NCBI GenBank assembly: GCA_017409825.1
Contig: JAFQRZ010000009.1
Coordinates: 1 to 39,518 of the forward strand
Direction of reading: 5' to 3'
From: Agathobacter sp.
Lineage (GTDB): Bacteria > Bacillota > Clostridia > Lachnospirales > Lachnospiraceae
Length of the DNA: 39,518 nucleotides
Every line of letters starts with the position of its first letter. The first letter of the stretch is position 1. The notes beneath the pieces were generated by a model, which saw nothing but the letters and a program-made list of their open reading frames with translations, was not told where the DNA came from and did no database searches. Below are positions 29,863 to 33,710 of this stretch, piece by piece. A program made the translations under genes and the position numbers.

Positions 29863-30573
29863 CTATTCTGCTGCTTCCAATGCAATTTTCATCATTGCAG
29901 TAAATGCATTTTGTCTTTCGTCAGAACTTGTTTCCTGATGGGTAACAAGAGAATCTGAGATTGTCAAAATACAAGCTGCTTTTTTACCTAATACGTTTGC
30001 GTTGTGGAATAAAGCAAAGCTTTCCATTTCTACACATTTTGCACCAAAGTTTTCTGGATAACGTGTAAAGCTGCCACGATTTGCATCCTGATAAAAAACA
30101 TCGCTGGAATGAATACGTGCTTCCTTACATGGAATTCCTAATTTTTCTGCAGCAGCAAGAATTCTGTCATTTACCTCTCTGGATGGATACATCACATCAT
30201 CCTCGCATCCATTCTGTGTCTTCGCATAGCTGGATTCGCTATAAGCACTTTCTGCCAATACGACATCATATAAATCCAACTCTTCTGTATATGCCCCTGC
30301 GGAACCTACACGAATAATTGTTTCTACCCCATACTGTGTAAATAATTCAAACGAATAAATGCCGATACTTGGCATCCCCATACCGCTTGCCATAACGGAA
30401 ACCTCTTTTCCGTTATATGTTCCTGTATAACCCAATACATTTCTTACAGATGTTACAAGTTTTGGATTTTCCAAAAAATTCTCTGCAATAAATTTCGCTC
30501 TAAGTGGATCTCCTGGCATAAGCACTGTTTTTGCAAATGCTCCATTTTCTGCCCCATTATGTGGTGTTGCCAT
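29863..30573 (-). CDS. deoD: Purine nucleoside phosphorylase, DeoD type
   Basis: The 236-residue hexameric PNP splits purine (deoxy)nucleosides to base and (deoxy)ribose-1-phosphate. Landmarks are VLMPGDPLRAKFIAENF with the phosphate-binding residues, GMPSIGIYSFELF, RVGSAGAY, EMESFALFHNANVLGKKAA and CILTISDSL, with Asp in the last motif as the catalytic acid. The frame opens at a TTG two codons earlier; GGAGGG is 8 bases before the ATG at 30573 and gives the standard 236-residue length. It is first in the nucleoside operon, behind the promoter at 30608-30636. Confidence 0.96.
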   Translation of the reverse strand: MATPHNGAENGAFAKTVLMPGDPLRAKFIAENFLENPKLVTSVRNVLGYTGTYNGKEVSVMASGMGMPSIGIYSFELFTQYGVETIIRVGSAGAYTEELDLYDVVLAESAYSESSYAKTQNGCEDDVMYPSREVNDRILAAAEKLGIPCKEARIHSSDVFYQDANRGSFTRYPENFGAKCVEMESFALFHNANVLGKKAACILTISDSLVTHQETSSDERQNAFTAMMKIALEAAE

Positions 30574-30607
30574 AGTCAATTCCCTCCTCCGACTTCATTA
30601 TAGTGCT

Positions 30608-30636: not shown

Positions 30637-30655
30637 GATATAATTAATGGAATAT

Positions 30656-30866
30656 CTTAATAAATTAGGTTTTCTAAGTGCTACGAAAGCCGAATGACAA
30701 TACAGATAAATATGGACACGACTTGCGCTCATAGCGTCCTCGTTACGTTACTAACCTCATGACGATTACCATCGCCATTCGCTAAGTAACGACGGGCCGC
30801 TAATGGTCCAATTTTATCTGTATTGTCATTCGGCTTTCTTACTTTCTTCTAAAATAATTTATTAAG
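30656..30866 (-). repeat. Structured repeat element, copy A
   Basis: A nested inverted-repeat element that fills half of the deoD-secA gap. The outer arms CTTAATAAATTA (30656-30667) pair with 30855-30866. An asymmetric internal loop carries conserved TTTCGTAG and AAGTAAGAAA, read on the minus strand. A perfect 25-bp stem (30686-30710 with 30813-30837) extends by TGGAC/GTCCA after a 2x2 mismatch. The core pairs CGTTACT (30746-30752) with AGTAACG (30785-30791) around a hairpin. It encodes no protein. It lies on the opposite strand to copy B, the two sharing about 5 bases of outer arm. Confidence 0.85.
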
Positions 30867-31074
30867 AATTCAGTATTATCCATAAAGTAAGAAATCAGCC
30901 CTTATATATATGTAAATGAGCACCCTTAGGGAGCCATCGTTACTTAATGAGCAGACCACCAATGTGGGATGCGAATTTAGTAACGCAACGAGCTCACTAG
31001 GAGCGAAAGTCGTGTGTGAATTTACATATATATAAGGGCTGATTTCGTAGGTTATAGACAACCTGAATTCTTAA
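30862..31074 (+). repeat. Structured repeat element, copy B
   Basis: The same architecture as copy A in the opposite orientation. The outer arms TTAAGAATTCAG (30862-30873) pair with 31063-31074. AAAGTAAGAAA and TTTCGTAG border the main stem, which is a perfect 27 bp (30891-30917 with 31020-31046) of a sequence unrelated to that of copy A. The core CGTTACT (30938-30944) pairs with AGTAACG (30979-30985). The inner hairpin has CCAC/GTGG flanked by GA/GA mismatches. It ends 17 bases before the secA stop, so it would form the 3' end of the secA transcript. Confidence 0.85.
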
Positions 31075-31090
31075 TTAATTCATTTATTCA

Positions 31091-33658
31091 TCATTTGCGA
31101 CCACAACACTGTTTATATTTCTTGCCCGATCCACATGGACATGGATCATTAGGATAAACTTTTTCGCTTGCACGTTTCTTTGGTGCCGCTTTGGCTGTGT
31201 CGTCTTTATTTGTTCCGGTTACTTTTGCAACCTCTTCACGTTCTACCTTCTGCTCTACTTTCACGTGGAAGAGAAGTTTTACGGTATCTTCCTGAATTGC
31301 TGCTGTCATTTCATCGAACATATCGAAACCTGACATCTTGTATTCTACCAATGGGTCACGCTGACCATACGCCTGAAGACCGATACCTTGGCGAAGCTGG
31401 TCCATATCGTCGATGTGATCCATCCACTTACGGTCAATCACTTTCAAGAGGATGACACGTTCTAATTCACGGAACTGTTCTGGTTCTGGGAACTCAGTTT
31501 CCTTCGCTTCATATAAGCGAACTGCCTGTTCCTTCAAGTACTGTTTCAATTCCTTTTCACTGTTAATCGAAGCCAAATCTTCTCTACGAATCTTCTTTAA
31601 TGGAATGATCGGAAGAAGAAGGTCGTTGAGTTCTCGGATGTTCCAATCTTCTTTTTCAATTTCTTCCGAAATGCAGATATCTACTGCATGTTCTACCTGA
31701 TCCTGAATCATCTTGAAAATAACATCACGCATGTTTTCTCCGTTCAATACACGAAGACGTTCTGCATAAATGATTTCTCTTTGGTCATTGTTTACCTGGT
31801 CATATTCTAAGAGGTTTTTACGAATACCAAAGTTGTTGCTTTCAATCTTCTGCTGTGCTTTTTCAATGGCTGAAGTAAGCATATTGTGCTGGATTTCTTC
31901 GTTTTCAGGCACGCCCAATGTCGTAAATACATCCATCAAACGGTCAGAACCGAACAAGCGCATCAAATCATCTTCCAATGAGATGTAGAACTTGGATTCA
32001 CCTGGGTCCCCCTGACGACCAGAACGTCCACGAAGCTGGTTATCGATACGTCTGGATTCATGACGTTCTGTACCAATAATCTTTAGACCACCTGCAGCCT
32101 TTGCTTCGTCATCCAGCTTAATGTCAGTACCACGACCTGCCATGTTAGTAGCTATGGTTACCGCACCGGCAACACCGGCCTGAGCTACGATTTCCGCTTC
32201 CATTTCATGGAATTTCGCATTTAATACTGTATGAGGAATACCTTCACGTTTTAATAATTTACTGATTAACTCTGAGGTTTCGATGGTAATCGTACCTACT
32301 AATACAGGCTGCTTCTTTGCGTGTGCTTTCTTAACCTCCTGTACTACTGCCCAGAATTTTTCCTTCTGTGTCTTATAAACCGCATCTTCATGGTCGATAC
32401 GAGCAACTGGACGGTTCGTAGGAATTTCAATAACGTCCATACCATAGATATCACGGAATTCCTTTTCTTCGGTAAGAGCAGTACCTGTCATACCTGCTTT
32501 TTTGTCAAATTTATTGAAGAAGTTCTGGAATGTAATTGTTGCAAGAGTTTTGCTCTCGCGTTTTACTTTTACATGTTCCTTCGCTTCGATTGCCTGATGC
32601 AAGCCATCGGAATAACGACGACCTGGCATAATACGACCGGTAAATTCATCTACGATCATTACCTGATCATCTTTTACCACATAATCCTGGTCTCTATGCA
32701 TAAGGTTATGTGCACGAAGTGCAAGGATGATATTGTGCTGGATTTCTAAGTTTTCTGGATCTGCGAGGTTTTCAATGTGGAAGAACTGTTCTACCTTTGC
32801 CACACCAGCTTCTGTCAGGTTTACCACCTTGTCTTTTTCGTTTACAACGAAGTCGCCAGTTTCCTGCTGCTCGATACCCATGATAGCATCCATCTTAGAG
32901 TACTCTTCTACATCCTCACCACGCTGCAACTGTCTTGCAAGTATGTCACACGCTTCGTATAATTTGGTAGATTTTCCGCTCTGACCAGAAATAATAAGTG
33001 GGGTTCTAGCCTCGTCAATCAAAACAGAGTCAACTTCGTCGACAATCGCATAATGCAAATCACGAAGCACGAGCTGTTCTTTATAAATAACCATGTTATC
33101 TCTCAAATAGTCGAAACCTAATTCATTATTGGTAACATAGGTAATATCGCATTTGTAAGCTTCACGACGTTCATCATTGGTCATGCTATTTAAAACAACG
33201 CCAACCTTAAGCCCTAAAAACTCATGTACCTGACCCATCCACTCCGCGTCACGCTTTGCAAGATAGTCGTTTACGGTAACGATGTGTACCCCTTTGCCTT
33301 CCAATGCGTTCAAATATGCTGGAAGTGTGGAAACCAAAGTTTTACCTTCACCTGTTTTCATTTCAGAGATACGTCCCTGGTGCAAAACGATACCACCGAT
33401 AATCTGTACACGGTAATGCTCCATTCCGAGCACACGGCGAGCTGCTTCTCGAACCGTCGCATAGGCTTCTGGCAAGATATCATCCATGGTTTCGCCATTT
33501 GCAAGACGATTCTTAAATTCCTTGGTCTTCGCCTTTAATTCCTCATCTGAAAGAGCCATCATTGTGTCTCTCAAAGCTTCTACTTTATCTACAATTGGAT
33601 AAATTCTTTTTAATTCTCTTTCACTGTGGGTTCCAAAAATTCTATCAAAAATACCCAT
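31091..33658 (-). CDS. secA: Protein translocase ATPase SecA
   Basis: The 855-residue cytosolic motor of the Sec pathway. The opening [18 protein letters not shown] is typical. Walker A is MKTGEGKTL (100-108), Walker B is [15 protein letters not shown], and helicase-like motifs follow: [38 protein letters not shown] written here in part as [11 protein letters not shown]. The C-terminus has the zinc-binding SEC-C motif [13 protein letters not shown], which contacts SecB or ribosomes in other species. AAGGAG 7 bases before the ATG at 33658 decides the start, so the seven extra in-frame residues are dropped. It is monocistronic here, with a strong promoter at 33711-33739 and repeat element B directly after it. 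Confidence 0.98.
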
Positions 33659-33710
33659 TTCAAACTCCTTTATCTTCATTTTTGTCCATTTTTAGGCAAA
33701 TACTCATGGT

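Follow-up and report, generated by a model that had tools for sequence, protein, structure and literature searches.

Correia/NEMIS, RUP, ERIC and RPE are MITE-type intergenic repeats of bacteria (PMC2229807). The repeat described in this work, which we call the core family, resembles them in its size range (approximately 100-250 bp for those repeats), in the lack of a substantial ORF and in the inverted repeats at its ends. Further points of likeness are the many intergenic copies, the long stem-loop that transcripts would form and a possible effect on neighbouring mRNAs. Unlike those repeats, the core family has a conserved core with compensatory pairs, an invariant GNRA loop and a distribution over 121 genera. 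It also meets stop codons in a polar manner, carries inverted gene ends in some of its arms and has no partner among the transposase classes tested. REP repeats measure 20-40 bp, and those of the GTAG type are linked to Y1 (RAYT) transposases (PMC3733652). The GTAG- and CGTC-tagged REP/BIME families treated there are extragenic palindromes, often in inverted pairs, as are the elements studied here. GTAG and CGTC strings occur in the core family as well, maybe by coincidence. However, its unit is of 200-260 bp, and Y1_Tnp is absent from G000, G007 and G024.

Intrinsic terminators are similar in that a hairpin lies directly behind stop codons; as judged by eye, the core-family hairpin of the window's genus group also has a GC-rich base flanked on either side by A/T tracts. 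In contrast with terminators, the core family encloses a core of at least about 100 nt within its stem arms, has an inconsistent U-tract, and is repeated and apparently mobile. Finally, template switching has been proposed to create and maintain RNA stems (PMC8794818). There, as we propose for the core family, perfect stems are made or restored in one event, with no G-U intermediates. That work concerns RNA genes, whereas our proposal bears on a mobile repeat with coding ends copied into its arms as well. Searches of the literature, mostly outside subscription journals, yielded no description of a core-family repeat.

The window of this study is the whole 39,518-nt stretch that was analysed, contig JAFQRZ010000009.1 of an Agathobacter sp. 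assembly (GCA_017409825.1). Two elements, A and B, lie between its deoD and secA genes. With somewhat more than half of our confidence, we read them as two copies, placed head to head, of a mobile Lachnospiraceae repeat that is MITE-like, has no ORF and takes over gene 3' ends.

The element pair between deoD and secA

The initial annotation described two inverted elements of about 210 bp filling the gap between deoD (29863-30579, - strand) and secA (31091-33679, - strand), both confirmed with NCBIfam models. Inverted-repeat and fold analysis places A, from outer arm to outer arm, at 30655-30867 on the - strand and B at 30864-31072 on the + strand, with an imperfect arm of B that extends to 31086. 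The two elements touch and are arranged head to head. The start of deoD lies past the 3' side of A, and the stop codon of secA is directed toward the 3' side of B, 18 bp off.

From the outside inward, the elements comprise outer arms, an internal loop made of box 1 and box 2, a long stem called P1 and the core. In A, the outer arm on the element's 3' side (30655-30667) pairs perfectly over 13 bp with 30855-30867, and the 3' arm of P1 (30685-30710) pairs perfectly over 26 bp (25 plus a G-C pair of the box) with 30813-30838. The conserved core of A (30711-30812, - strand) contains CGTTACTTA..TTAGTAACGTAACG at 30741-30791, and its small hairpin is closed by a GCAA tetraloop of the GNRA type (30723-30726, - strand). 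In B, the outer arms (30864-30873 and 31063-31072) form 10 perfect pairs. Box 1 (CCATAAAGTAA, 30880-30890, + strand) and box 2 (GTAGGTTATAGACA, 31047-31060, + strand) are the opposite sides of a conserved mismatched loop, and the 5' arm of P1 (30891-30917) pairs perfectly over 27 bp with 31020-31046. The core of B (30918-31019, + strand) contains CGTTACTTA..TTAGTAACGCAACG at 30938-30990 and a GAAA tetraloop at 31005-31008 (+ strand).

These measurements agree with the outer arms of 12 bp and the perfect stem of 25-27 bp first proposed. The motifs reported for the asymmetric loop (AAAGTAAGAAA and TTTCGTAG) and for the core (CGTTACT with AGTAACG, and TTAGTAACGyAACGAG) are present. The length of about 210 bp holds for A and B, but better-preserved copies are longer, with ends near AATAACGCATTT...AAATCGTTATT as judged by eye. 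The pair contains no coding sequence of substance, as had been claimed: its sole ORF of at least 60 aa is a 61-aa TTG frame antisense to B. Folding energies of A and B are 11.8-12.6 standard deviations below those of dinucleotide shuffles on either strand, and none of 200 shuffles equalled them. A further copy is truncated by the contig end (39437-39518, - strand) and presumably is the third of the three copies initially counted, but the family is far larger. Contig C33 is broken at the identical base of the repeat inside which the window contig stops, which indicates that repeats of the core family break the assembly.

Spread of the family and folding of its core

A search with the 451-bp window pair found 66 matching pieces in the own genome, including another inverted pair that is 75% identical across nearly the full length. 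Among 60 genomes, the exact core pattern was present in the own genome and two relatives. In a public genome set it was found in 35 stretches, 34 of which are labelled Lachnospiraceae, Agathobacter or Butyrivibrio and one uncultured Clostridiales; Butyrivibrio hungatei DSM 14810, a cultured strain, is among the carriers. Identical coordinates suggest that the genomes G007 and G024 are the Agathobacter MAGs RGIG4703 and RGIG2208. Neither of two core patterns had an exact match in viral contigs, and the window pair had no match in plasmids and phages.

We built a covariance model of the core from 67 copies (alignment A1), that is, from 71 pattern hits with identical copies merged, minus two chance hits and two copies cut by contig ends. 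At E <= 1e-4, this model matched 138 of 397 Lachnospiraceae genomes, in 121 of 334 genera, and 107 of the 320 good-quality genomes of the family. In a draw of 398 genomes across the phylum, five matched: four Lachnospiraceae, the own genome included, and one genome outside the family, G816. The G816 locus (L297, on C2) has six weak hits, the best with an E value of 9.5e-8, and a well-folded similar structure. A deeper search of four rich genomes gave at least 46, 41, 34 and 19 hits, which are lower bounds as 150 of the 304-452 candidates per genome were scored. The family is thus short, ORF-less and multicopy, in the manner of MITEs.

Comparative evidence suggests that the core is selected as a folded RNA. 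The structure of A1 is paired in 94.9% of 1255 cells, as against 84.0% in shuffled alignments, and both members of a pair have changed in 169 cells versus 48. Its covariation score is 0.310, versus 0.123 for shuffled alignments and at most 0.078 for slid controls. On four of the five measures none of 500 shuffles equalled the real alignment, and on the fifth three did. The core pair table contains 13 G-U and 6 A-C cells. Of 20 elements compared from other genera, 12 have CGUCGGUACUUA..UUAGUACCGCUACG or something close to it in place of the helix CGUCGUUACUUA..UUAGUAACGCAACG of the window's group. One and the same helix thus occurs in compensatory forms, and a U.U mismatch within it is conserved. 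The loop of the small core hairpin is GNRA in all 67 aligned copies (43 GAAA, 11 GAGA, 7 GCAA, 3 GCGA, 2 GGGA and 1 GGAA). To our knowledge, nothing in a DNA hairpin calls for a purine as the third base of the loop, and we therefore regard this loop as an RNA signature on the + strand. Together, the compensatory pairs and the tetraloop make the core look like RNA and support the 'structured RNA' reading, one of those initially offered. The neighbouring genes are in (-,-) orientation for 29 and in (+,+) orientation for 19 of 71 elements, from which no direction of core transcription is apparent. The strand that bears the RNA signature is antisense to the abutting gene.

Both a match to a known Rfam family and a lack of further copies had been named as outcomes that would speak against an undescribed element. 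As far as tested, the element stands as undescribed, with very many additional copies in its own and related genomes. No Rfam family reached its gathering score in the whole window, and all matches in evalue mode for the window pair, 14 loci and one close-up were below that score. The sub-threshold matches at elements involve miRNA models, rliE, Clostridiales-1 and short models, including 45.1 bits for the MIR2593 model at a core II hairpin, whereas those to rliD and Plastid-psbM fall elsewhere in the loci. We consider all of these chance matches. Where alignments were given, the models matched at elements do not pair as the elements do. Clostridiales-1 RNA (RF01699) is likewise clostridial and of comparable length, but its 21.8 bits fall short of the gathering score (48), and its aligned pairing does not correspond.

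Other repeats were observed alongside the family. A second apical core, with a 23-nt loop (GAAGCCTTAYGYCARTACAGCGA), sits on the same kind of stem, several times with the same box 1 and box 2 (L034:14549, L040:1883, L044:6847, L037:9151, L039 on the - strand and L034:9744). Core-less or core-reduced hairpins retain boxes, stem and outer arms (L048:4709-4743, L035:3710-3756, L039:14914-15040, L049:5237-5321, L047:4414-4453 and L056:1722-1755). A distinct, nearly complete palindrome of about 590 bp at L034:11480-12070 (G000:C7:56479-57069) has ends CTTCAATTCGTGAAGTTCATTTTAAGTAAATTCCGATTT and a folding z of about -33 (20 shuffles). It has about 39 matching places in G007, yet is absent at the orthologous site there, and some core-family composites have ends similar to its own. 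In G110, an apparently unrelated repeat of about 52 bp occurs in more than 12 copies (e.g. C7:178850-178901, L216:10168-10219).

Gene 3' ends, terminators and stem P1

The secA arrangement recurs throughout the family. Of 96 elements, 59 have an opposite-strand neighbour downstream, and 50 of these 59 have its stop codon at most 80 nt from the core (51 of 60 before removal of one false ORF). Among stops that face the 5' side, 12 of 44 are that close (Fisher 4e-9), and the median distances are 66.5 nt on the 3' side and 142 nt on the 5' side, false ORF included. In the window's genus group, the counts are 30 of 31 and 2 of 20. Outside it the bias is weaker, with 21 of 29 (false ORF included) and 10 of 24 (p 0.03). 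Elements are depleted from divergent gaps, which represent 3 of 57 gaps with an element and 41 of 145 without (p 2e-4), while convergent gaps represent 23 of 57 and 13 of 145, respectively. As copies within a genome are related, these p values overstate independence and are optimistic.

Gene ends abutted by an element tend to have no terminator of the usual kind. In the own genome, a terminator-like hairpin within 130 nt was found at none of 18 abutted ends and at 16 of 41 element-free ends of transcription units (p 0.001); across all genera, the counts are 4 of 50 abutted ends and 13 of 44 ends on the 5' side (p 0.008). The same simple scanner detected a terminator behind secA in 7 of 11 relatives and none in the window. 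It overlooked a hairpin with a T-rich tail behind secA of G007, framed by AACGATTT/AAATCGTT. The elements themselves are not compact GC hairpins followed by a U-tract, apart from one weak + strand match in A (30794-30809), and in other genera a T-rich tail is not consistent. The suggestion that the pair serves as a 3'-end signal of secA is therefore compatible with its position, where most relatives have a terminator, but the pattern appears to be family-wide rather than specific to secA.

In some elements, the end of the adjoining gene is copied into the opposite outer arm. We analysed elements with a recognisable tetraloop and 60-nt flanks, excluding eight loci that duplicate G007 or G024 records. 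At an empirical 99% threshold, 20 of 94 elements have a significant inverted repeat in the flanks outside P1. This outer repeat includes coding sequence on the 3' side only in 12 cases, on both sides in one and on the 5' side only in none. The case with both sides, L074, looks spurious, and three of the 12 are doubtful: L093 is a likely assembly fold-back, the coding sequence of L129 is a false ORF that overlaps, and L115 is marginal. This leaves nine cases, all from the window's genus group. The polarity of the copies owes partly to placement, since stop codons are nearer on the 3' side. At the contig end in L093, a perfect 65-bp fold-back surrounds the element and is probably an assembly artefact caused by the stem. 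As for such artefacts elsewhere, the other inverted coding copies contain mismatches or gaps.

The final codons of pflB (743 aa), an unnamed 492-aa gene, carB and pnp (697 aa), for example, reappear inverted across an element. In G024, pflB and carB have no element; by eye, in the stretch read, the gene end occurs once and is followed by an apparent ordinary terminator. Four gene ends carry different elements in G000 and G007 (C6:5706/L056, C8:122886/L066, carB and a gene for a 746-aa glycosidase-like protein, L040/L071), and one carries the same element in both (C8:138675/L064).

P1 was scored in 40 elements of the window's genus group, comprising 37 distinct stems, one that was skipped and two duplicates. 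Of 740 cells, 728 are Watson-Crick, 5 G-U, 6 A-C and 1 other, figures that the scoring itself favours, as the arms were set at the best-pairing offset with at least 15 of 20 matches required. Three or four types of pair are used at 16 of the 20 positions. An RNA stem that drifts by single changes is expected to pass through G-U steps, with G-U outnumbering A-C. The nearly perfect, strand-symmetric pairing with few G-U cells therefore points to template switching between the arms during DNA replication as the probable source of P1 pairing. Next to P1, mismatches persist in the loop, with A.G in 32 of the 37 stems and G.G in 22, which is not expected from unrestrained template switching; this loop thus seems to be selected. 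We reject an origin of P1 from the target site, since the G194 copies have P1 in common.

Mobility and alternative explanations

The 'non-autonomous mobile element' initially considered is supported by the many copies, their spread and their common terminal repeats. In G194, 19 aligned copies share the terminal repeats GGTAATTGCGAAACT..AGTTTCGCAATTACC, with variation. Deletion derivatives of 49-115 bp are bounded by these ends too, and TA adjoins the ends in many of the 19 copies (by eye). In the own genome, outer arms differ between copies, and the ends of head-to-head composites recur at contig ends, the contig joins being inferred. The usual unit in G110 is a head-to-head pair of about 700 bp made of two different subtypes, at 13 places. 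No clean empty site of the core element was recovered and no target-site duplication was demonstrated, with one genome in the search of the G110 genus; the only clean empty site is that of the different 590-bp palindrome. The 30 loci read out of 71 places with a G194 end comprised elements and deletion derivatives, and no autonomous copy was recognised. No mobilising enzyme was found among Y1_Tnp, RVT_1 and DDE_3, each of which is missing from carriers, and mobilisation by IS630 (DDE_3) or Y1 enzymes is unsupported. The core family would work like a mobile, MITE-like hairpin that occupies gene 3' ends; it may or may not qualify as a strict MITE, which calls for a partner transposase and a target duplication.

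On the reading that we favour, we infer movement, termination and an RNA function from the patterns described above. The element would move as DNA, with an enzyme supplied in trans, and copies would settle at the 3' ends of transcription units, where they would take over or displace the terminator. The long hairpin would then become the new 3' end of the opposing mRNA. Template switching at the replication fork would keep the arms alike and swap the stem sequence in single steps, and it might extend the palindrome outward, thereby copying the gene end into the other arm. The core would be selected as a folded RNA on the + strand, either for its own spread or for use by the host.

An unlikely competitor is a plain MITE, a derivative of a DNA transposon in which the inverted repeats yield the hairpin incidentally, purifying selection has left the 3'-end placement and the core has no RNA role. 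It would account for the terminal inverted repeats, the internal-deletion derivatives with the same ends, the TA beside many G194 ends and the depletion between divergent genes. The family-wide covariation of the core pairs and the constant GNRA loop do not fit with it, and selection provides no obvious reason for the 3' rather than the 5' side of the element being at stops. Moreover, DDE_3, the transposase class expected from TA ends, is missing from 18 of 20 element-rich genomes; G079 has one and the hit in G110 is below the cut-off.

Alternatively, the element might be a host-beneficial 3'-end module, a terminator or protector of mRNA ends that spreads mainly via recombination and is retained for its function, which we find rather improbable. 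The lack of terminator-like hairpins at abutted ends, where relatives have terminators at the same genes, argues for it, as do the different elements that two species carry at some gene ends and a P1 base rich in GC that leads, in the gene direction, into the T-rich box 1 (window's genus group, by eye). However, the distribution is patchy, with a minority of the family's genomes matched and the exact pattern confined to three of 60, and copies are numerous and closely similar. The inconsistent T-rich tail in other genera and an RNA signature antisense to the abutting gene also argue against such a module.

Very little of our confidence goes to a bacterial SINE-like retroelement, which would insert at the 3' ends of genes through target-primed reverse transcription; the enzyme would then switch to the local mRNA and leave an inverted gene-end copy on the element's 5' side. 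This scheme predicts both the stop-codon junction and the polarity of the inverted copies, doubtful cases included. Nevertheless, RVT_1 is absent from 11 of the 20 element-rich genomes, several of them 99-100% complete. An RVT_1 match is present in 11 of 12 genomes without element hits. An integron-like recombination site behind each gene of a cassette array hardly deserves credence: position behind stop codons and a same-strand cluster of hits on one G393 contig evoke it, but the hits of that cluster lie where units of several genes end and amid nested repeats, not in single-gene cassettes, and the core appears to lack the attC core sites. In the cluster, L211 (G393:C9:21463-31419), the core is of a variant type, TCTCGTTACTTA..TTAGTAACGTGAGC, and the usual GAAA hairpin cannot be recognised in it.

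To return to the repeat that we favour as mobile, about one third of the genomes sampled from the Lachnospiraceae, a major family in gut and rumen, carry it. Each of the four genomes counted gave tens of hits, and the repeat reaches no Rfam family. It would join in one object the movement of an ORF-less repeat with no obvious transposase, the takeover of gene 3' ends by a hairpin and the natural rewriting of a stem. With 37 different stems and almost no intermediates, P1 would constitute an unusually clean natural record of template switching. It is tempting to speculate further, although we regard this as improbable, that the elements are family-wide mobile structured RNAs, spread by an unrecognised kind of enzyme acting on the folded core, that their insertion behind stop codons is of fixed polarity and supplants the terminator, and that template switching then matches their arms to the host gene. 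If so, a parasite would form the 3' end of host messages.
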